Below are positions 1,341 through 13,288 of a DNA stretch of 64,000 nucleotides, in pieces; positions within the stretch are counted from its first letter, which is position 1; every line of letters begins with the position of its first letter. Where the stretch lies: the NCBI RefSeq assembly GCF_900100655.1, contig NZ_FNCE01000002.1, forward strand, positions 248,001-312,000, given 5' to 3'. Source of the stretch: Limimonas halophila (GTDB lineage: Bacteria; Pseudomonadota; Alphaproteobacteria; Kiloniellales; Rhodovibrionaceae). The translations under genes and the position numbers were made by a program. Under the pieces are notes generated by a model. It did no database searches. It was not told where the DNA came from and worked only from the letters and a program-made list of their open reading frames with translations.

Positions 1341-2111
1341 TTAAAATCCGTGCATCGCGGGCCAGGGCAAAAGCCCGGAACCCAAGGCCAAGAGAATACC
1401 GTAAAGCCCCACGGCGAGGCCGGGGCCGAAGGGAAACTGCGCCCCGCGCCCGGCCGCTCGCCACGCCAGCCCGAGCGCGATCCCGGCCACGCCAGCGGCC
1501 ACAAGGAAATGCGCCAACGCGCCGACCGGCAGCCACACGCCCGCCACGGCCATCAGCTTCACGTCGCCCAGCCCCAGCGCCTCCACGCCGCGCCACTTCG
1601 TGAAAACCCACCGCAGCGCCAGCGCCATCAGCCCCAGGCCGGCGGCGGCGAGGACGGCCGGCAGAAACGCGCCGTCGGTCACGCCGCGCCACGCCAGCCC
1701 CGTTCCGGCGGCGAGCGCCACCATCTCGTCCGGCACGATCAGCCAGTCCAGATCCACCGCCACGATCACCGCCAGCGCCGTCGCCAGCACCGCGAGGCAG
1801 AGCGTCGCCGCGTGCGGCCCGAAGGCGAGCCACGCCGCCAGCACGGCCGCGCCGGTCAGCACCTCGATCGCCAGATCGCGCACGGGAATGGCCGCGCCGC
1901 AGTGCCGGCAGCGCCCGCGCGCCAGCAGCCAGGAGACGATGGGGATCAGCTCGCGCGCCCGCAGCGTCCGCCCGCAGGCCGGGCACGCCGACCGGCCGGT
2001 CAGCCACGGCTCGTCGCGCGGCAGACGGTGCGCCACCAGCCCGGCGAAGCTGCCCAGGCACGCCCCGGCCGCGAAGACCACCAGCGCCTGGACGACAGCG
2101 GCCACGCTCAC
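1341..2111 (-). CDS. pilD: Prepilin peptidase / N-methyltransferase (A24 family)
   Basis: An inner-membrane aspartic protease that cleaves the prepilin leader after Gly and methylates the new N-terminus. The 256-residue product has the zinc-type tetracysteine loop (CPACG at about 43-47 and CRHCG at 68-72) around ELIPIVSWLLARGR. It also has the two acidic catalytic sites: a DLD/VPDE segment near residues 120-129 and GLGDVKLMA near 181-189. Multiple hydrophobic segments fit the usual eight-helix topology. I chose the GTG at 2111 because it overlaps the upstream stop as GTGA; longer versions only add residues from the preceding gene. It is translationally coupled to the small secreted protein and sits among at least four pilin-type genes, which are its likely substrates. 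Confidence 0.93.
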   Translation of the reverse strand: MSVAAVVQALVVFAAGACLGSFAGLVAHRLPRDEPWLTGRSACPACGRTLRARELIPIVSWLLARGRCRHCGAAIPVRDLAIEVLTGAAVLAAWLAFGPHAATLCLAVLATALAVIVAVDLDWLIVPDEMVALAAGTGLAWRGVTDGAFLPAVLAAAGLGLMALALRWVFTKWRGVEALGLGDVKLMAVAGVWLPVGALAHFLVAAGVAGIALGLAWRAAGRGAQFPFGPGLAVGLYGILLALGSGLLPWPAMHGF

Positions 2112-3394: not shown

Positions 3395-3558
3395 GCTGTA
3401 CGCCCGCCGTATGCACACGTACACCCCTTAACCTGGACCAGATTTTTTGTGCGTTCCGCGAATTGAGGAGCGCGCACGCCCGCGAGGAACCACATTCGGG
3501 CTAGTGGTACATGCGCGGCAGGGTAACGGCCCGGCCGCGACGCGACAGGAGGGAGCGT

Positions 3559-4284
3559 ATGACTGTCCGCAAACGCACCAGCCAGGGCGGCTTCACGCTG
3601 GTGGAGCTGGCCGTGGTTCTTCTCATCATCGGTCTGATCGTCGGCGGCATCCTGCGCGGGCAGGAGCTGATCACGAGCGCCCAGTTGAACTCGGTCCAGA
3701 CCGAAACTAACCAAATTCGCACGGCAACCAATACCTTCCGCGACCGCTTCCAGGCGCTGCCAGGAGACTTCTCGGACGCGGGCCTGATCGATCAGAGCGG
3801 CCTCAACAACGCTCTCGACGATGGCAACGAAAATGGCCGGATCGATGGCAGCCGCGTGGGGACAGCGGGTGACGAAGGCAATCAGTTCTGGGCCCATCTC
3901 GGCGCGTCAGGCCTGTTGGATGGTGTCGACGCGGACGATATCGCCGGGAACGGCTTGTCTGGCGCCAATGCCTTCGAAGCCGCTGTCGGCGGGTTCTACA
4001 GCATCGGTCAGGGTGCCCCAGGTGCGTTCGCGGGCAACATCTCCAACCGCGATCCCTGGTTCGTGCTGGCGACTGGCGGGGCCAACGATGCCGGCAACGT
4101 GACATCCCACGATGTCGGCGTCTTGGACCCCGAAGGCGCCGCGCAGCTCGACCGCAAGATGGACGACGGCAACGCGGATGCCGGCAACGTGCGGGGCGGC
4201 GCGTCTGGCGGCAGCTGCGTCGGCGGCAACGGCGACTATGACGTAGATAGCAATGGGGACTGTGGCCTCGCGATGCGTCTGTAA
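3559..4284 (+). CDS. Type IV prepilin, first of two tandem paralogues
   Basis: A 241-residue prepilin. The leader MTVRKRTSQGG is cut before FTLVELAVVLLIIGLIVGG, a textbook N-terminal methylation and polymerisation helix with Glu5. The helix continues into LITSAQLNSVQTETNQIRTA and then a globular head with FQALPGDF, a DDGNENGRIDG acidic loop that resembles a Ca2+-binding turn, QFWAHLG, and a C-terminal disulfide-sized Cys pair. AGGAGGGAG lies directly upstream of the ATG at 3559. The gene at 4387 shares the N-terminal 50 or so residues almost exactly and the same order of head motifs, so the two arose by duplication. Likely major or alternative pilins processed by the peptidase encoded at 1341-2111. 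Confidence 0.88.
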   Translation: MTVRKRTSQGGFTLVELAVVLLIIGLIVGGILRGQELITSAQLNSVQTETNQIRTATNTFRDRFQALPGDFSDAGLIDQSGLNNALDDGNENGRIDGSRVGTAGDEGNQFWAHLGASGLLDGVDADDIAGNGLSGANAFEAAVGGFYSIGQGAPGAFAGNISNRDPWFVLATGGANDAGNVTSHDVGVLDPEGAAQLDRKMDDGNADAGNVRGGASGGSCVGGNGDYDVDSNGDCGLAMRL

Positions 4285-4386
4285 GGTCACCTTCCAAATG
4301 CTCGGAGCCACATCATCTAGCCGCCGAAGCGGTCGTTGATGGGGCTCCGAGCCCACAATACGTACGAGCGGCGGTGTATTGGTTCG

Positions 4387-5151
4387 ATGCCAACGATCAG
4401 CCTTTTCAACAGACAACGCGGGCTCGACCGTCAGCGCGGCTTTACGCTGGTGGAGTTGGCGGTCGTTCTCCTGATCATCGGGCTGATCGTCGGCGGCGTT
4501 TTGCGCGGCGAGGAATTGATCACCAGCGCCCAGCTGAACAGCATCCAAACCGACGCCAATCGGGTGCGCACGGCCACATTCACATTTCAGGAAAAGTTCC
4601 GCGCCTTGCCGGGCGATTTCGAAGAGGTTGGCATCCTCGACACCACCCCGCTCGACAACCCGCCGACCGGTGGAAACGGCGACGGCCGGATACGTTGCGC
4701 CGACGGTGCAGCGGGCGATTGCCGCCTCGGCTCTGCTAATGACGAGGCCGTACAGTTCTGGGTTCATCTGGGCACGCAGGGAATTCTGGAAACCCAGGCG
4801 AACGCTCTCAACGAAAATGGTATTACCGCCGATACAGCGTTTCGTACCTCGTTCGATGGTGTTTTTACGATCAAACACGGCATCGACACGCAAAATTTCC
4901 TCGATACCGAGCGGCCCAACGACCTCTTGATGATGGTCGGCACGGCCAACGATCTGAGCAGTCAGGCCAACGACAAGCCCATCCTGTCCTCTCGCGATGC
5001 AGCGAGCCTGGACGCAAAGGTCGACGATGGCCGCGCCACATCGGGCGACATGCTCGGCGGATCGAGCAGCTCGGATGGAGGATGCCGGGATGACGAAACC
5101 CAGAGCGGATACGCCAGCGACGGCCGGTGCGCTCTGGCGTTCTTGTTTTGA
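4387..5151 (+). CDS. Type IV prepilin, second tandem paralogue
   Basis: About 254 residues. A basic leader ending RQRG is followed by FTLVELAVVLLIIGLIVGG and RGEELITSAQLNSIQTD, nearly identical to the preceding pilin. The head then diverges but keeps FRALPGDF, a GGNGDGRIRC loop, QFWVHLG and an acidic Asp/Ser-rich tail with cysteines. The start is uncertain. ATG at 4387 gives an 18-residue leader, normal for this class; an upstream in-frame ATG at 4336 would give 35 and neither has a strong SD. It lies about 100 bases after the first pilin gene, possibly on the same transcript. Confidence 0.85.
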   Translation: MPTISLFNRQRGLDRQRGFTLVELAVVLLIIGLIVGGVLRGEELITSAQLNSIQTDANRVRTATFTFQEKFRALPGDFEEVGILDTTPLDNPPTGGNGDGRIRCADGAAGDCRLGSANDEAVQFWVHLGTQGILETQANALNENGITADTAFRTSFDGVFTIKHGIDTQNFLDTERPNDLLMMVGTANDLSSQANDKPILSSRDAASLDAKVDDGRATSGDMLGGSSSSDGGCRDDETQSGYASDGRCALAFLF

Positions 5152-5175: not shown

Positions 5176-6273
5176 TTATACAGTGACGCTAGCCGCCTGT
5201 GCCGCTGTTTGCCGATACGCCCGCGGCGTCATCCCGGTGCCCTCCTTAAAAGCCCGATTGAAGGTGGCGAGGCTGTTGAAGCCGACGCGGAAGGCGATCT
5301 CGGTGATCTGCAGGTCGCTGCCGGTCAGCAGCGTTTGTGCCTCGGCGATGCGGTAGCCGTTGACGAACTGCGTGAAGCTCTGCCCAAGGCCCACGTTGAG
5401 GATGCGCGTCACCTGGTGCTCCGGCACGCCCAGGTTCTCGGCCAGATCGCGGCGGCTCAGGCCGGGCGCGCGATACAGCGCCTCCTCGGCCATGCGCGTC
5501 CGGGCCTCACGCAGCAATTCTTCTTCGCAGCTCGACAGCGGTTCCGCCTGCGGTTCTGGCGTGGCGCCGGCGCCATTCCCGGCCGGCTCATCGGCTTCCG
5601 GCGCCTCCTCCACGGTCGAGACGGGCAGGCGGAACAGCGCCGAGCCGACGAGGTAGAGCATCGTCACCTGCACCAGCGCCGCCGCGAGATTGGCGCGGCC
5701 CTGCGGCACCAGCTCGCTCAGGGCCAGCAGGCCGACTCCGAGCGCCACCGCCTGCACGCCGAGGATGGCCACCGCGAGCGCATAGCGCGGGCGCTCAGCC
5801 CGTCTCGCAGCCAACGCACGAAGCTGCCGGCGAGCCGTGATCAGCACCAGCGCCAGCACGCCCGCGCCCGTGATCACGGCGTAAAGGTGCAGCGCCGGCT
5901 GAACCGGCACAGCCAGGTTCGCGAACGCGAACGCAGTGACCCCGTTTCCCCGCAGCACGACACCGGGCAGGGCCACCACGGGCACGACCAGGACCGCCAG
6001 ATGGCGCCGCTGCGGCGGCGCTTGCGTGACCACTTGCAGCACGAGCAGATAGGTCGCCGCCGGCAGCGCCAGCCACAACGCCGCCGCCAGCGCGCCCGCC
6101 GGCCCCGAGCCGAGAACGGGCACCAGCAGGGCCCCCAGCAGGCATGCGGCGTACACCGCCGGCACGACGGCACGCGCGCGCGGTCGCAGCGCTAGCACGG
6201 CGTATGCGCCCAGCAGCACCGCGTGGATGGCCCCCGCCAGCCGCACACCCGTCGCGATTGCGTCCCACGCCAT
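5176..6273 (-). CDS. AraC-family regulator with membrane-spanning N-terminal half
   Basis: A 365-residue protein. Residues about 10-215 form roughly six or seven hydrophobic segments. A charged Pro/Glu-rich linker (about 220-245) leads to a C-terminal AraC/XylS double helix-turn-helix (about 265-355) with the family signatures DLAENLGVPEHQVTRILN and ITEIAFRVGFNSLATFNRAF, then MTPRAYR. It is therefore a membrane-anchored transcription factor that may sense an envelope signal directly. It follows the small exported protein gene by ten bases in the run that begins with the secretin, so it is probably co-transcribed and may control pilus expression; that target is inference. Confidence 0.85.
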   Translation of the reverse strand: MAWDAIATGVRLAGAIHAVLLGAYAVLALRPRARAVVPAVYAACLLGALLVPVLGSGPAGALAAALWLALPAATYLLVLQVVTQAPPQRRHLAVLVVPVVALPGVVLRGNGVTAFAFANLAVPVQPALHLYAVITGAGVLALVLITARRQLRALAARRAERPRYALAVAILGVQAVALGVGLLALSELVPQGRANLAAALVQVTMLYLVGSALFRLPVSTVEEAPEADEPAGNGAGATPEPQAEPLSSCEEELLREARTRMAEEALYRAPGLSRRDLAENLGVPEHQVTRILNVGLGQSFTQFVNGYRIAEAQTLLTGSDLQITEIAFRVGFNSLATFNRAFKEGTGMTPRAYRQTAAQAASVTV

Positions 6274-6282
6274 GCCGTTCGC

Positions 6283-6978
6283 TCACCGCCGGAGGGGGCT
6301 CGTGTCCGCCTGGAGTTCGCGCTTCAGGTAGTAGCGCAGCCAGCGCCGCTCGGCCCGCGGCATCCCCTCCGCCTGGACGAGCTTGCGCACGAGCGCGCGG
6401 GCAGCCTCCGTCCGGCCCATGTCCGCCAGCACCAGGACGCGCAGGTTGCGCGCCCACGCCGGAATGCCCCCGGCCTCGAAGGCGGCCAGCTCCCGCGCCA
6501 GGTCCAGCGCCAGCTCGGAGTCCTCCAGCCGAAACCGGGCCAGATAGATGGCGTGCGTCATCCAGCGCCACTCGCGCCCCGGCGCGCGGCGCACGTGGTC
6601 GGCGAGATAGGCGACGATGTGGCGCACGTCGGGCGGCGTCTGCGTGCCGGAATAGAGCAGGGCGGCGCTCATGGGGACGACATCCGAGCGCGCGTCCAGC
6701 CGGTCGAGGGTGCGGAACCATTCCTCCAGGCGGCCGTAATCCATCGCCTTGTAGGGCACGACGCGCCCGCCGAGATTGCCCAGATGCTGCAGCTGAAGGC
6801 TGCGCGCGCGAAAGGCGAACTGGCCGTCCCCCAGCGCCTGTGCCCGCAGCGCCAACGGCGAGGGTGGCGCCGGAACGACGTCACCCCGGGGCTCGCGCTC
6901 ATCGAGGTGCGCGCCGAGCAGCGCCGAGGCGCCGAGTCCCAGCACCACCACGGCAAGCGCGGCCGCCCGCACCGTCAA
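6283..6978 (-). CDS. Exported helical-repeat protein, function unknown
   Basis: About 231 residues. A hydrophobic N-terminal segment (residues about 4-22, AAALAVVVLGLGASALLGA) acts as a signal or anchor. The rest is soluble, with alternating helices in the C-terminal half (ARFRLEDSELALDLARELA, NLRVLVLADMGRTEAARAL) resembling TPR-like repeats. The TTG at 6978 overlaps the stop of the permease gene as TTGA and has AGGGA seven bases upstream; a GTG at 6972 is the alternative. Tight coupling with the permease suggests a joint function. I do not recognise a named family. Confidence 0.65.
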   Translation of the reverse strand: MTVRAAALAVVVLGLGASALLGAHLDEREPRGDVVPAPPSPLALRAQALGDGQFAFRARSLQLQHLGNLGGRVVPYKAMDYGRLEEWFRTLDRLDARSDVVPMSAALLYSGTQTPPDVRHIVAYLADHVRRAPGREWRWMTHAIYLARFRLEDSELALDLARELAAFEAGGIPAWARNLRVLVLADMGRTEAARALVRKLVQAEGMPRAERRWLRYYLKRELQADTSPLRR

Positions 6979-7727
6979 AGCGACTGTCCCTGCGCGTCGA
7001 ATACCACGGCCGCGACCAACGCCGCCGTATAGACGGCGGCCTGTGCGGCGGCGATCCCAATGGTGTAAGGCGATTCCAGGCCGTGAACCAGCCACCGGCT
7101 CTGCGCCAACAGATCCAGCCGGGGCAGCAGCAGGCCCAGCACGTCGACCAACTGCCCCATCCAGCCGTCCGTCGGGGCGAACTTCGAGTTCGCAATGGCC
7201 AGCAGCACGCCCATCATGCGCGCCACGACGTACAGACCGAGCGCAACGAGCACGCCCGCGATCACGCCGCGCAGCCCGAGCGCCACGAACAACGCCAGCG
7301 CCGCCATCACGATGCCCTCGAGCGCCAGCGTGGCCGTCCAGACAGCCAGACCCGCGGGCTGGGCCGGCGGCCACCCCGCGACACCCGCGATCGCCCCGGC
7401 GGCCAGGGCGAAGCCAACCGCCAGCGTGGCGAATCCGGCCCACGCCTGGACCACGAAGCGCCCGCGCGAAACCGGCGTGGCCAGCAGCAGATGGAGTTCG
7501 CCGGACTCCGAGAGCCGCCGGACCTGCAGCGCCACGAACAGCACCAGCCCGCCGATCACCAGAAGCCGCGCACCAAAGGCGGCGAACACGCTCGCGGCGG
7601 CGCCCTCTTCGGCGATGGAGGTGCCGCCCGCGAACGCCGCCACGAGCCAGATCGCCACCAGCCCCATGGCCATCGCCGCCACCAGGCGATCCCGAAGCGC
7701 GCTCAGCAGGAGGTAGGGCAGGGTCAT
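6975..7727 (-). CDS. ABC-2-type permease-like membrane protein
   Basis: A 250-residue membrane protein with about six hydrophobic segments. It carries the ABC-2 permease feature near residues 65-90, LVLFVALQVRRLSESGELHLLLATPVSR (given here in parts: ALQVRRLSESGEL then LLLATPVSR), the cytoplasmic coupling region before the second helix pair. No ABC ATPase gene is adjacent, so it either borrows one or works without one. Its ATG overlaps the secretin stop as ATGA and its own stop overlaps the next start. Secretin, permease and exported protein thus form one translationally coupled unit. Involvement in pilus biogenesis is inferred from this arrangement only. Confidence 0.72.
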   Translation of the reverse strand: MTLPYLLLSALRDRLVAAMAMGLVAIWLVAAFAGGTSIAEEGAAASVFAAFGARLLVIGGLVLFVALQVRRLSESGELHLLLATPVSRGRFVVQAWAGFATLAVGFALAAGAIAGVAGWPPAQPAGLAVWTATLALEGIVMAALALFVALGLRGVIAGVLVALGLYVVARMMGVLLAIANSKFAPTDGWMGQLVDVLGLLLPRLDLLAQSRWLVHGLESPYTIGIAAAQAAVYTAALVAAVVFDAQGQSL

Positions 7728-9460
7728 TGCCGCGAACCGCTCCCCGAGCCCGGCATGGGGATGCGCCGGGGATCGCGCGTGTAGTCCTGATAAATCCGGC
7801 TGTCGGCGGCGTCCGGACGCGCGTTCCGCACGATCTGCGCGTTCAGCAGGATGACGAGTTCCACCATGTCGGTGTTTTCGTTTCGCTGCTTGAACGCGCG
7901 CCCGATCCAGGGGATCTGCGACAGGCCCGGAACGCCGGAATCCTCGTTCGAGGTGCGTTCCTGCATGAGCCCACCCATGATCGCCGTCTGGCCGGATCTC
8001 ATGTCGAGAACGCTGTCGATCTCGCGCGTCTCCACGACCGGGATCTGGGAGGTGATGTCAGTCCCGGTGCCGGTCAGGCGTTCGGAGATGATGGCGACCG
8101 CGGGATCCTCGACGAAGCGGTCCACGCGCGAAACCGTCGGCCGCAGCGTCAGCGTCACGCGGTTCTCCCGCAGATCGATGGCCGGGCGAACGTTCATGAC
8201 GAGGCCGACGGGCACCGTGCGGATTTCGCTGTCCACCTCCAGAGTGGTTTGGTTGGTTTCCTCGTCTTCTTCCTCCTCGGCGTCCAGCTCGAAGAAGACC
8301 TCGTTCTCGGCGACCTTGAGGATGGCGCTCTGGTTGTTGAGCACCGTCACACGCGGGCTGGAGAGCGTGCGTGTCGTGCCGAATTGGCCCAGCAGGTTGA
8401 GAACCGCGTTGAAGTTGTCACCGTTGAAGGTGAGCGTCGACAGGCCCGACGTGGCGGTGCCGGCGGCCGAGGTGGCGAGGTTGCTGAAGTTCACGCTCGC
8501 CGTGAGCTGGTCCGCCACGGCGTTCCAGTTGATCCCGCTCTGAAAGGTCCGGTTCAGGTCCACTTCGATGATCTTCGCCTGAATCAGCACCTGGGCGGAA
8601 ATGGCGCGGCGGACGCGGCGCAGATAGCTCTGCACCGCCTCGTGCTGCTTGGACGTGCCGAAGACGCTCAGCGTTCCGCTTTGCGGCGTGATGACGACGG
8701 GGCTGCCCTCGCCCTGTTGCTGCTGACGCAGCCCGCGCGGGGCCGTGTTCGCCAGCACGGTGCGCAGCCCGGTTTCCAGTTGCGCATAGACGTTCGACGA
8801 TGCCTCGCCGGATATCGTCGTGCTGGACGAGGTGTCCCCACCCTGGGCCCCGCCTTCGCCAACGGCGCCGGTGGACAGCTGCGTCGAGATCGACACCTGG
8901 CTCTGGGTTTCGCGCGTCTGCGTGATGTAGGAAATGTTGTAGGTTTTCATGTACGGCGTATCAACGCGCACACGAACCACGTTGTCCTTCACGCTGTAGC
9001 GCAGGCCCGCCTGCCGACTGATGCGCTCGACCACCTTCAGGAAGGGGGTGTCGTTGGCCGAAAAGATGATCCCGCCCGTGATCCGCGGGTCGATCTGAAT
9101 GTCCACGCCGGCCTGCTGTGCCAGCTGGAACAGCACGTCCTTGATGGGAACCTTTTCGGTTACGGACACGCTGACGCGCGGGTTGGGAAACAGCTCCGGC
9201 GTGTCCGCCTCTGGCTCGGCCGGGGAAAGCTCGGGCACCGCCGGGGCGCTGCGTTGCCGGCCGCGCTCGTCCGGGACCGGCGGGGGATTTTCGAGAAGCT
9301 GCTTGAACTGCTCGCGACTCTTGTCCACGCCTTTGTCGTGCTCGTCATCCGGAATCTGATTGCAGCCGGCGAGCGCGAGGCCCGCAGCGCACATCAGCGC
9401 GACCGCCGCTCGACGGGAGGCGCGCGGATCGCGGCGTCGGCGCGCGGAATCGCTGAGCAT
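7724..9460 (-). CDS. mshL: MSHA/type IV pilus secretin lipoprotein (MshL/PilQ-like)
   Basis: A 578-residue outer-membrane secretin forming the channel through which the pilus exits. A Sec/lipoprotein signal ends LALAGC (Cys33). A Pro/Glu linker is followed by an N0/STN-type domain (about 90-165, VPIKDVLFQLAQQAGVDIQ), an N1-type segment (about 250-330) and the secretin core with VLIQAKIIEVDLNRTFQSGI, SSPRVTVLNNQSA and the C-terminal signature SGVPGLSQIPWIGRAFK. A very acidic insertion (about 400-420, ELDAEEEEDEETNQT) is notable. It diverges from the TPR-protein gene across a 178-base intergenic region and heads the leftward run of permease, exported protein and AraC regulator. Confidence 0.92.
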   Translation of the reverse strand: MLSDSARRRRDPRASRRAAVALMCAAGLALAGCNQIPDDEHDKGVDKSREQFKQLLENPPPVPDERGRQRSAPAVPELSPAEPEADTPELFPNPRVSVSVTEKVPIKDVLFQLAQQAGVDIQIDPRITGGIIFSANDTPFLKVVERISRQAGLRYSVKDNVVRVRVDTPYMKTYNISYITQTRETQSQVSISTQLSTGAVGEGGAQGGDTSSSTTISGEASSNVYAQLETGLRTVLANTAPRGLRQQQQGEGSPVVITPQSGTLSVFGTSKQHEAVQSYLRRVRRAISAQVLIQAKIIEVDLNRTFQSGINWNAVADQLTASVNFSNLATSAAGTATSGLSTLTFNGDNFNAVLNLLGQFGTTRTLSSPRVTVLNNQSAILKVAENEVFFELDAEEEEDEETNQTTLEVDSEIRTVPVGLVMNVRPAIDLRENRVTLTLRPTVSRVDRFVEDPAVAIISERLTGTGTDITSQIPVVETREIDSVLDMRSGQTAIMGGLMQERTSNEDSGVPGLSQIPWIGRAFKQRNENTDMVELVILLNAQIVRNARPDAADSRIYQDYTRDPRRIPMPGSGSGSRQ

Positions 9461-9638: not shown

Positions 9639-11264
9639 ATGAGCGTGATCCACGCAGCGCTGCGGAAATCGCGGCACAAGAAGGCTGCGCCCGGCGCAAG
9701 CGAAGTCGCCGCGTCCCACAGCCGGGGCAACGGCGAGGATGAGGCCGGTCCGGCCGTCGGCCCCGATATCAGCCAAGATCAGGTTCAGAGCTATCTGCGT
9801 GCGGCGGCGGACCACCGGGGCCACCGGCGGCTCGGCCCTTTCAAACTACTCGGCCTGACCCTTCTTGGCTCCGCTGCGGGGACCGGCCTGGCTTTGACCC
9901 AGACGAATGCGCCGCTGCCGCAACCGCGCGACGTGCGCGCTTGGCTGGCGCCCGTCGCCGAGGTGGTTCGTGACCAGACCGGCGTGGTCCTGGCGATTGC
10001 GCCCCGGCCGGACCCCCCGGCCATCGATTTCAGGGCTTTGGATCGCCCGGAACCGCGCCCGTTGCCGGACCACGTCCGCCGGGTCCTGGCGCGCCCCGGC
10101 GACAGCGAGGCATCCAAGTCCGCCGGCGTTGCCGGCGCCGTTCGGTCGGCCCTTGCGGATCAGGGGCAGGCAGGGGCCGAAGTTGCCGACGCCAGGGTGG
10201 TGCAGTCACCGGCGATCGCTCTGAACGTCGCTGGCAAAACGACGGTGACGCCCGCCCAACCCTCGGCGCGGCTGGTCGAGACCATCGAGGCCATGGCCAG
10301 CGACGGGCCGCCGGACGGCGGCACCCCGAGCAGCGGGACCGGGGAGGCGGCGGACACCACGGCGACGCGTGGTGACGACCGGAACGCCGACGCCATTCAG
10401 GTCACGGTCACGGACGGCGAGGCGAGCGGCCGCAACGCCGGCGACCGCGACACCGACGGCCCCGGCACCAGCAGCGATGCCAGGGAACCCACGCGGCTGG
10501 TCCCCGACGGGACGATGACGCTGCCCGGCAAGCAGGACGGCAGCAGCGACCGGAACACCTCGCCGGATCGCAGTGCAGGAGAAAGCCTGTCCGCGGACCG
10601 CGCCAAGGACACGGTGCCCGACGAAGCGGGCGCGGGCGAACCGAGATCAGGTGAACCGACAGTCAGCACGACGCGCCGCATCGACGCGCCGACGATCACC
10701 GCCACCCACCGCCAAGCAGCGCGCGCCCTGCGAACCGGCGCGCCCGGGGAAGCCGCCCGGCTGTTCCGCCGCGTACTGGGTGAGTCGCCGAACAGGCCGG
10801 ACGCGCTGCTCGGGCTGGCGCTCGCCCAGCAGCGCATGGGCGATACGGCCGAGGCCCGGACGACCTACCGCAAGCTACTGAAGGTGGAGCCCGGCAATCA
10901 GCGTGCCCTGCGCAACCTGATCAACCTTGCGGGCCTGGGACCGCCGGAGCAGGCCCTGAAGCGGCTGGAGCGGGTTCGGGAAGCGCATCCGAATGTTGCG
11001 CGCGTCCACGCCCGCATCGCCCGCACACACCTCCGCGCGGGCAAAGCAGCCGCTGCGGCGCAGGCGATGCAGCGGGCCGTGGCGCTGGCGCCGTCCAGCG
11101 TGCGCTACCGCTACGACCTGGCGGTGCTGCACGATCGAGCCGGCAACCGCCAGCGCGCCGCCAACGCCTATCGCCGGGTTCTTCAAGCCGGCGCGAGCGC
11201 CCTGCAGGATGCCGGCGTCGCGGCGAGCGCGGTGCGACGGCGTCTGCGGTACTTGAGCAGGTGA
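9639..11264 (+). CDS. mshN: Membrane-anchored TPR protein, MshN-like
   Basis: A 541-residue protein starting MSVIHAALRKSRHKK. It has a single transmembrane helix near residues 68-90 (LGLTLLGSAAGTGLALT), a long low-complexity Asp/Gly/Thr-rich linker (about 150-345) and a C-terminal array of tetratricopeptide repeats (about 350-540). The repeats include LGLALAQQRMGDTAEARTTY and YDLAVLHDRAGNRQRAANAY. This is the architecture of MshN in MSHA pilus loci, proposed to link the secretin to the inner-membrane machinery. It begins the rightward operon mshN-mshM-pilT; the next gene starts three bases after its stop. Confidence 0.8.
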   Translation: MSVIHAALRKSRHKKAAPGASEVAASHSRGNGEDEAGPAVGPDISQDQVQSYLRAAADHRGHRRLGPFKLLGLTLLGSAAGTGLALTQTNAPLPQPRDVRAWLAPVAEVVRDQTGVVLAIAPRPDPPAIDFRALDRPEPRPLPDHVRRVLARPGDSEASKSAGVAGAVRSALADQGQAGAEVADARVVQSPAIALNVAGKTTVTPAQPSARLVETIEAMASDGPPDGGTPSSGTGEAADTTATRGDDRNADAIQVTVTDGEASGRNAGDRDTDGPGTSSDAREPTRLVPDGTMTLPGKQDGSSDRNTSPDRSAGESLSADRAKDTVPDEAGAGEPRSGEPTVSTTRRIDAPTITATHRQAARALRTGAPGEAARLFRRVLGESPNRPDALLGLALAQQRMGDTAEARTTYRKLLKVEPGNQRALRNLINLAGLGPPEQALKRLERVREAHPNVARVHARIARTHLRAGKAAAAAQAMQRAVALAPSSVRYRYDLAVLHDRAGNRQRAANAYRRVLQAGASALQDAGVAASAVRRRLRYLSR

Positions 11265-11267
11265 TCC

Positions 11268-12122
11268 ATGCCCTATCTGGACCACTTCGGCTTCACGGGC
11301 TGGCCGTTCACGCTGACCCCGAACCGGGGGCTGTTCTTCCCCGACCAGCACCAGCACGTCCTGGAGTCCGCCCGGTTCGCGGTCCAGCGGGGCGAGCCGA
11401 TCGTGAAGGTGTCCGGGGAGGTCGGCACCGGGAAAACCCTGCTCTGCCGCCTGTTGATGACCAGCTTCAGCGAGGAGGGTGAATGCGTGGCCTTCCTGGC
11501 GCTGCCGCAGGCCGGCTACCACGCCACGATGCGCGGCGTCGCGCGCGAATTCGGGCTGAACCCGGCCACCGACGACGATATCTTTCCGCTGCTGTCCAAC
11601 CACCTGATGCAGGAGCACGCGGCGGGACGCCGGCCCATCCTCGTCGTGGATGAGGCGCAGGCACTGGGGCGCAAGGGGCTGGAGACGATCCGTCTGCTCT
11701 CGAACCTGGAAACCGACGAGGCCAAGCTGTTGCAAGTGGTCCTCTTCGGCCAGCCGGAACTCGACCGCCTCGTGGACGAGTACGGCATGCGCCAGATCCG
11801 CCAGCGCATCACCTTCAGCTTCACCACGAAGCCGTTCGATACCCGGGCCGGGGTTCGCTACATCCGCTACCGCGTGCAACAGCGCAGCCGTGTCGCCCCC
11901 AACGATGTCTTCACGCGCGGCGCGATGAAAGTGCTTGTTAAAGCGGCGGGTGGTATCCCGCGTGCCATCAATCTGGTTGCGGACCGCGCGCTCCTGGCTG
12001 CCTACGCGGCGGACAGCCCGCGGGTTACCCGCCGCCACGCCCGCCGGGCGGTACGCGACGCCGGGCTCGTGCCCGACGGCCCGGCCGGCTGGTTGCGACT
12101 GGGGCGCGGGCGCGCCGCCTGA
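11268..12122 (+). CDS. mshM: ExeA/MshM-type AAA ATPase
   Basis: A 284-residue AAA ATPase of the ExeA/GspA family, which uses ATP to help secretins assemble or insert through the cell wall. It opens MPYLDHFGFTGWPFTLTPN, the family's typical start. It has Walker A GEVGTGKT at about 50-57, Walker B RPILVVDEAQAL near 122-133, and the arginine/sensor region RQIRQRITFSF. The long periplasmic peptidoglycan-binding domain of ExeA is absent, as in MshM. It lies three bases after the TPR gene and 23 bases before the PilT gene. Confidence 0.88.
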   Translation: MPYLDHFGFTGWPFTLTPNRGLFFPDQHQHVLESARFAVQRGEPIVKVSGEVGTGKTLLCRLLMTSFSEEGECVAFLALPQAGYHATMRGVAREFGLNPATDDDIFPLLSNHLMQEHAAGRRPILVVDEAQALGRKGLETIRLLSNLETDEAKLLQVVLFGQPELDRLVDEYGMRQIRQRITFSFTTKPFDTRAGVRYIRYRVQQRSRVAPNDVFTRGAMKVLVKAAGGIPRAINLVADRALLAAYAADSPRVTRRHARRAVRDAGLVPDGPAGWLRLGRGRAA

Positions 12123-12145: not shown

Positions 12146-13288
12146 ATGAGCACCGGCAACAACGTCCTGGACCTCCTGCTGGAACGGGCGCGGACCAGCG
12201 GCGTCAGCGACATCCACATCGCCGCCGGCCACCGGCCCCTGATGCGCCTCGAGGGCCGCCTGGAGCCGATGGACCATCCGGCGCTCGACGAGTCGGCGGT
12301 GCGCGGTGTGCGCGAAAGCCTGCTCGCCGCGGGAAGCGGCAACGTGCTGGGCGAGGACACCGACATGGACTTCGCCCGAACGCTCAACGACGGCGAGCGC
12401 TACCGCATCAACGCATATCAAACCCTCAACGGCTCGGCGCTGGCGATCCGGCGCCTGCCCACGGCGCCGCCACCCCTGGAGGACCTGCCGGCGCCGGCCG
12501 TGGTGCGCGACCTGGGCGAGCGGGAAAGCGGGCTGATCCTGGTGACGGGGCCGACCGGTTCGGGCAAGTCGACGACGCTCGCGGCGCTCATCGATCGCAT
12601 CAACACCTCCCGCCGCCAGCACATCATCACCATCGAAGACCCCATCGAATACGTGCACCCGCATAAGGAAAGCCTCATCAATCAGCGCGAGGTCGGCCGA
12701 CACACGGCCTCCTTCCATACGGCGCTGCGCGGGGCTTTGCGCGAGGACCCCGACGTCGTGCTGGTTGGGGAGATGCGCGATCTTGAAACGATCTCGCTGG
12801 CGCTGACGGCGGCCGAAACAGGGCAGCTGGTGCTGGCGTCGATGCACACGCCCACGGCGCCGCAGGCAATCGACCGTATCCTCGACGTCTTCCCAGGTCA
12901 GGAGAAGGAGCTGATCCGCTCCATGCTCTCCACGGCGCTGACGGCCGTGGTGACCCAGCGCCTCCTGCCCGCGCAGGGAGGCGGCCGCGCGGCCGCGATG
13001 GAGGTGATGCTGGGGACCTCGGCCGTGCGCAACCAGATCCGCGAGGGCAAGATCCCGCAGCTGCATCAGAGCATGGAGCTGGGCCAGCAAGCTGGCATGC
13101 GCACGATGAGTCAGGCGATTCAGGCGCTTGCCGACACAAATTATATCGATGGCCAAACGGCCTCCGACTGGAGTGCGGCCTTTGACGGCACGCGGGGGCA
13201 AGACGGGCAGGCAACCAAGCCCCAGTCCGATGCGGCGAACGCCGAACCCGCGAGCCGCCGGCGGGGCAGCGTGTCGCGCAGCTTCTGA
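12146..13288 (+). CDS. pilT: PilT-like pilus retraction ATPase
   Basis: A 380-residue secretion NTPase. The N-terminal domain carries SDIHIAAGHRPLMRLEGRL. The catalytic domain has Walker A VTGPTGSGKSTT (about 132-143), the Asp box IITIEDPIEYVH, Walker B DPDVVLVGEMRD, and the His box LVLASMHTPTAPQAIDRI. The PilT C-terminal helix AVRNQIREGK is present, where classic PilT reads AIRNLIREGK. The length and that motif favour a retraction ATPase over a PilB/MshE extension ATPase. The last 45 residues are a hydrophilic tail not usual in PilT. Classical MSHA loci do carry pilT-like genes elsewhere; here it is in the same operon as mshM. Confidence 0.9.
   Translation: MSTGNNVLDLLLERARTSGVSDIHIAAGHRPLMRLEGRLEPMDHPALDESAVRGVRESLLAAGSGNVLGEDTDMDFARTLNDGERYRINAYQTLNGSALAIRRLPTAPPPLEDLPAPAVVRDLGERESGLILVTGPTGSGKSTTLAALIDRINTSRRQHIITIEDPIEYVHPHKESLINQREVGRHTASFHTALRGALREDPDVVLVGEMRDLETISLALTAAETGQLVLASMHTPTAPQAIDRILDVFPGQEKELIRSMLSTALTAVVTQRLLPAQGGGRAAAMEVMLGTSAVRNQIREGKIPQLHQSMELGQQAGMRTMSQAIQALADTNYIDGQTASDWSAAFDGTRGQDGQATKPQSDAANAEPASRRRGSVSRSF

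Follow-up and report, generated by a model that had tools for sequence, protein, structure and literature searches.

Passages of PMC3724824, PMC3546991, PMC6060248 and PMC3924187 describe PilGHI of Myxococcus xanthus as an ATP-binding cassette (ABC) transporter whose genes share an operon with pilA or lie at the pil locus and which is indispensable to assembling pili or translocating pilin; those of PMC3924187 and PMC3724824 specify a need for pilus assembly and PilA export, that of PMC6060248 states that experimental data backing a transport role are lacking, and a passage of PMC5544727 reports that social motility and exopolysaccharide were lost once the pilGHI cluster had been deleted. For a second ABC system, NosDFY, a passage of PMC7660919 reports a requirement in maturing a periplasmic copper centre. 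Here we analyze a 64-kb stretch of Limimonas halophila DNA (contig NZ_FNCE01000002.1, positions 248,001 to 312,000; hereafter the window, with positions counted from its start), in which the gene for an ABC-2 type permease lies between those for a secretin and an exported protein in a cluster resembling that of the mannose-sensitive hemagglutinin (MSHA) type IV pilus. A preliminary description of this DNA held that ABC-2 permeases are not standard type IV pilus components, which is true of most model systems but overlooks M. xanthus PilGHI as those passages present it.

We document the anatomy of this locus, the linkage and co-occurrence of its genes in other genomes, and the predicted fold of the permease. 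The permease is very probably linked to the pilus and to an ABC ATPase encoded behind PilP, and we consider it likely, from these comparisons, that permease, exported protein and ATPase form one PilGHI-like ABC transporter dedicated to an MSHA-like type IV pilus. The genes concerned lie in the window and in the preceding stretch, L081 (G000:C2:228001-248000), into which the pilus cluster extends past the window start:

7724-9460, minus strand: MshL-type secretin with a lipobox (578 amino acids; Pfam Secretin, 5.2e-35)
6975-7727, minus strand: ABC-2 type permease, in a PilI-like position (250 amino acids)
6283-6978, minus strand: exported protein without a lipobox, in a PilG-like position (231 amino acids, TTG start)
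G000:C2:246657-247445 (L081 18657-19445), plus strand, outside the window: ABC ATPase, putative partner of the permease
L081 12516-14288: PilB (assigned label)
L081 14375-15676: PilC (assigned label)
L081 15692-17374: PilMN (assigned label)
L081 17371-18015: PilO (assigned label)
L081 18008-18565: PilP (assigned label)

The window sequence confirms the three minus-strand open reading frames of the preliminary description, with an ATGA overlap at the secretin/permease junction (CAATGACC) and a TTGA overlap at the permease/exported-protein junction (CTTTGACG); the order on this strand is secretin, permease, exported protein and then an AraC-type regulator. The span that had been flagged, 6975-9460, contains the secretin and the permease and leaves out the exported protein. 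The permease had also been reported to be without an ATPase. This apparent lack is a window-edge artefact, because the pilus cluster continues before the window start in the order PilB-PilC-PilMN-PilO-PilP (labels assigned from known pilus anatomy, the order of the genes and phmmer relations between pilus loci, without a family scan) and has the ABC ATPase directly after PilP. A gap of 555 bases separates the end of the ATPase gene from window position 1, and the permease is 7.5 kb away. Its product is orthologous to the ATPases of pilus operons L062, L073 and L074, with 41-43% identity, and scores 392.8 bits in its own genome compared to 126 for the next-best ABC ATPase. Across 46 sequences of this ATPase, the Walker A pattern was present in 45, the signature pattern in 46, the Walker B pattern in 45 and the H-loop pattern in 35. 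An adjacent ABC ATPase in relatives had been proposed as a sign of an unrelated transporter; the outcome was the opposite, in that the gene for this ATPase belongs to the pilus cluster.

To follow permease and ATPase through the Alphaproteobacteria, we sampled 385 genomes of the class, using profile A1 for the permease and scoring at most seven first-look candidates per genome for the ATPase. Thirteen of the 385 genomes have the permease, with 14 copies in total, and 12 have an ATPase scoring at least 224 bits; the best remaining ABC ATPase scored 193.5 bits. Both occurred together in 11 genomes, compared to a chance expectation of ~0.4 (12 × 13 / 385). In all 11, the ATPase immediately follows PilO/PilP, and it does so even when unlinked from the permease, which lies ~70 kb away in G150 and on a separate contig in G312, G248, G342 and G096. 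Of the 14 permease copies, 11 have the secretin immediately upstream, 13 adjoin the exported protein and 8 have the AraC regulator. The order secretin-permease-exported protein is kept across families in other alphaproteobacteria, which supports the earlier proposal of a dedicated pilus accessory.

A scan with an alignment of the exported protein (A3) gave 91 relatives, the best 80 of which were kept as loci in named genomes; these were selected by the exported protein, so its presence is given, and some belong to the class genomes above (L219, for example, is from G150). The permease was found in 80/80 of these loci, the secretin in 78/80 and nearly always directly upstream, the AraC regulator in 60/80, and the ATPase within the fetched stretch in 47/80. 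For 20 of the 33 loci without an ATPase we searched the genomes, and 19 have it elsewhere, at 288-350 bits. Hosts include Micavibrio species, among them Micavibrio aeruginosavorus (CP066681.1, L221), and Rhodospirillaceae bacterium LM-1 (L178); the genus Micavibrio includes predatory members. Locus L220 has a permuted order, with the exported-protein gene ahead of secretin and permease.

Other searches define how widely the cluster is spread. The window secretin scores best with the TIGR02519 pilus_MshL model, at 226.4 bits, below the cut-off of 250.2. Among 289 class genomes this model had a match at E 1e-40 in 72 and exceeded its cut-off in none, and the weaker matches are probably GspD-like. 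A search for the secretin within its own order returned matches of only ~23-36% identity, none full length, so the cluster is not common to the sampled near relatives. A single-sequence search of 58 genomes matched the own genome alone, and a single-sequence scan of genome contigs found no relatives, which reflects a limit of sampling and sensitivity, as profile searches later succeeded. No relatives were found on plasmids, nor on viral contigs searched with the A3 alignment.

Relatives also occur outside the class. In a phylum sample of 398 genomes, the permease matched in 43 at a threshold of E 1e-6, three of these within the class. We mapped 20 regions from other classes, in which an exported-protein match adjoins the permease in 12 (the permeases of two, L291 and L301, being placed from phylum-search positions) and an ATPase match of at least 150 bits is present in 9. 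These relatives adjoin pilin, PilB, PilC and PilMN genes, with the module directly adjoining a pilA-like pilin gene on the same strand. Comparison of profiles gave 99.9% for the permeases and 99.9% for the exported proteins, which supports homology. In a further family, f194, the order pilA-ATPase-permease-exported protein, which is similar to that of pilAGHI in M. xanthus, recurs in 7 of 8 further regions, with profile comparisons of 97.6% for the permease and 92.8% for the exported protein compared to controls of 10, 0.8 and 0.2%; the permease profile against the alignment of the AraC regulator gave the control value of 0.2%. In loci L306 and L317 (genomes G810 and G795), an ABC ATPase and a weak permease match, of another phylum family, lie near pilB-pilC and are a possible further PilGHI-like set.

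The window permease had no family match in Pfam or NCBIfam, and its relatives matched ABC2_membrane_4 in 3/10 cases (best E 0.0041) and ABC2_membrane_2 in 1/10 (best E 0.00029). An AlphaFold2 (AF2) model built from 10 sequences (pLDDT 85.2, pTM 0.84) was closest to NosY (7o12_E; Z 18.7, root-mean-square deviation 4.1 over 235 residues, 17% identity), followed by PmtCD (Z 18.1) and CcmB (Z 16.4); the rows for NosY, PmtCD, CcmB and ABCG spanned Z 15-19, and Foldseek gave a TM of ~0.70. As modeled, the permease has an ABC-2 exporter fold, so that the earlier ABC-2 label, which finds no family match for the window protein, stands on predicted structure. The exported protein is predicted to have an N-terminal membrane helix followed by an alpha-helical repeat domain (AF2 pLDDT 85.3; A3 alignment, n = 10). 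Its model gave weak TPR/SNAP-like matches only, the best of which (Z 12.0) may reflect a shared arrangement alone; family scans returned nothing useful, and its profile against solved structures gave chance-level rows only. Membership of the TPR proteins was considered for it and rejected, the profile comparison giving 10% with MshN-type TPR proteins compared to 92.8% with the pilA-linked exported family, which itself had at most a weak TPR match (2/10) in NCBIfam and Pfam.

We infer that the three proteins act in one complex, that ATP hydrolysis by it would serve pilus assembly, and what it would act on. A permease dimer with the NosY-like fold would be powered by two ATPases, and its change in conformation would act on the anchored helical-repeat protein at the periplasmic face. 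The exported protein would then promote inner-membrane pilin handling or pilus assembly at the PilMNOP-secretin axis, and the neighboring AraC-type membrane regulator might tune pilin expression in response to the condition of the inner membrane. That such a mechanism involves no transport is a tentative proposal, to which we give somewhat less than an even chance.

The strongest alternative, and one we regard as unlikely, is a true exporter. Its substrate (a pilin-derived peptide, a lipid, a sugar precursor or a small protein) would cross the inner membrane to be used in decorating or assembling the pilus, and the exported protein would be a receptor or acceptor. Judging by the titles of the structure matches, amphipathic peptides or lipids are carried by ABC-2 proteins with a similar fold (PmtCD, ABCG, ABCA); PmtD was the sole relative when the permease profile was searched against solved structures (E 3e-5), and a passage of PMC3924187 lists PilGHI as required for pilin export. 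Against export, the closest fold belongs to NosDFY, which is described as maturing a periplasmic enzyme, and inspection of the mapped loci by eye, without family scans, showed no constantly linked gene for polymer or lipid biosynthesis.

The preliminary description had suggested, among its examples, lipid or lipoprotein handling during secretin assembly. In this reading the secretin, a lipoprotein, would depend on the ABC unit for help in getting to the outer membrane or assembling there. The position of the secretin gene favors this idea, since it is present in 78 of the 80 named-genome loci and upstream of 11 of the 14 class copies. The gene order recurs across families beyond chance, but the secretin/permease overlap does not. 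Overlap is characteristic of the permease and exported-protein genes (43/78 junctions, otherwise close) but was seen at just 3/77 secretin/permease junctions, where the usual gap is ~10-45 nucleotides; starts were taken as the in-frame start nearest a 4-base overlap, which biases these values toward short gaps. Where the secretin lies elsewhere, moreover, the permease remains with the exported protein. Pairwise distances across 46 loci point the same way: permease, ATPase and exported protein correlate mutually at r 0.80-0.81, and the permease-ATPase correlation (r 0.81) is 0.69 with the secretin removed, whereas permease and secretin correlate at r 0.63, or 0.31 with the ATPase removed, and ATPase and secretin at r 0.60. 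The window secretin carries its own lipobox (LAGC), as do 54/73 secretin relatives with a lipobox-like motif, and the exported protein has no lipobox (0/80 relatives with such a motif), unlike known pilotins. Thus, the permease tracks the ATPase and the exported protein more than it does the secretin, and we judge secretin handling improbable. We likewise gave a low rating to the exported protein as a pilotin, given its lack of a lipobox and the secretin's own.

Several observations weigh against a single, dedicated pilus transporter. The ATPase was not found in two of the 13 class genomes with the permease, G339 (rated 99% complete, in 260 contigs) and G380 (80% complete), nor in 1 of the 20 named genomes searched, and G319 has the ATPase but no permease. 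Three of the 14 class permease copies have no adjoining secretin, and one (G312, L146:9143-9961) has no exported partner. The module is optional, as permease and exported protein are present in 9 of 39 MshL-secretin regions of other genomes, taken best matches first. The distances of exported protein and secretin correlate at r 0.75, and all of the distance correlations include species-tree signal. Outside the class, a few relatives lie away from pilus genes (L293, L298), with neither an exported-protein nor an ATPase match in their mapped regions. We also note that the G319 ATPase (L318:4185-4841) is truncated and sits next to a 106-residue PilO fragment, in what is probably a decayed pilus cluster, and that L146:9143-9961 is a second permease copy in G312, ~5.5 kb from two PilT-like genes. 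An unrelated ABC transporter hitch-hiking in the pilus locus, an idea that the abundance of ABC ATPases and the absence of the module from 30/39 MshL-type regions would allow, is very improbable in view of pilus linkage that spans many families, reaches beyond the class and occurs in differing gene orders, and of an ATPase tied to PilO/PilP even when the permease is unlinked.

The remaining genes of the cluster in the window are as follows:

5176-6273, minus strand: putative membrane-embedded AraC-type regulator (several hydrophobic segments and HTH_18)
3511-4284, plus strand: type IV pilin-like protein with N-methylation motif (PF07963, 25.1 bits)
4336-5151, plus strand: type IV pilin-like protein with N-methylation motif (PF07963, 31.4 bits)
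9639-11264, plus strand: TPR protein in the MshN position (TPR matches; phmmer relatives in pilus loci L062, L073, L074 and L078)
11268-12122, plus strand: AAA ATPase in the MshM position (AAA_22; TIGR03015, 182.1 bits, under its cut-off)
12146-13288, plus strand: PilT-family ATPase (TIGR01420, 415.3 bits, above cut-off)
1341-2108, minus strand: prepilin peptidase-like membrane protein, start not fixed (open reading frame read by eye)

The pilin-like genes at 3511-5151 adjoin the permease block but lie on the opposite strand. Also within the pilus cluster, by eye, are two further minus-strand products: a large pilin-like protein at 1-1306, cut by the window start, and at 2108-2554 an exported protein of small size. 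HTH_18 was found in 7/7 members of the regulator alignment (A4); relatives of the regulator have 5-7 hydrophobic segments by a crude count, and its N-terminal membrane segments have no Pfam match. It is possibly a one-component sensor for pilin expression.

A broader and more speculative reading, which we consider doubtful, is that the type IV pili of many bacteria receive an energy input besides their extension and retraction motors, with a non-transporting ABC unit that uses its anchored periplasmic helical-repeat protein to push on pilins or on the PilMNOP-secretin axis, and a membrane-embedded AraC regulator reading the state of the unit and setting pilin expression. If so, the separation of the genes, with the ATPase next to PilP and the permease next to the secretin, would reflect the axis having two ends. 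The passages cited on PilGHI concern a single organism and leave its mechanism unexplained; a version with conserved order in alphaproteobacterial MSHA-like pili, including those of Micavibrio, turns the ABC transporter into a component that recurs among pili. Sequence families are now in hand for all three components and offer a route to test ABC energy use in pilin handling.

We found no publication joining MSHA, alphaproteobacteria, secretin, permease and ABC transporter, nor one joining mannose-sensitive hemagglutinin, Alphaproteobacteria, ABC transporter and pilus biogenesis, in literature searches whose scope excluded subscription journals. Compared to the MSHA pilus (MshL, MshM, MshN, MshE, MshG), the locus has a secretin that scores best with MshL yet falls below its cut-off, together with proteins in the MshM and MshN positions; the MSHA system of the textbooks is not known to include an ABC transporter. 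NosDFY provides, in NosY, the closest solved fold to the permease and likewise has a further component; this component, NosD, is however a protein different from the exported protein described here, and the client of NosDFY is NosZ rather than a pilus. PilGHI (MXAN_5782-5780; TC 3.A.1.144.5) has the same set of ABC ATPase, permease and extracytoplasmic protein beside type IV pilus genes, a likeness of gene content and position rather than of compared sequences, and the set in other-class relatives adjoins a pilA-like pilin. In the present locus, by contrast, the pilus is MSHA-like, the ATPase is split off behind PilP, the permease and exported protein stand behind the secretin, and an AraC-type membrane regulator alongside is a feature of its own.

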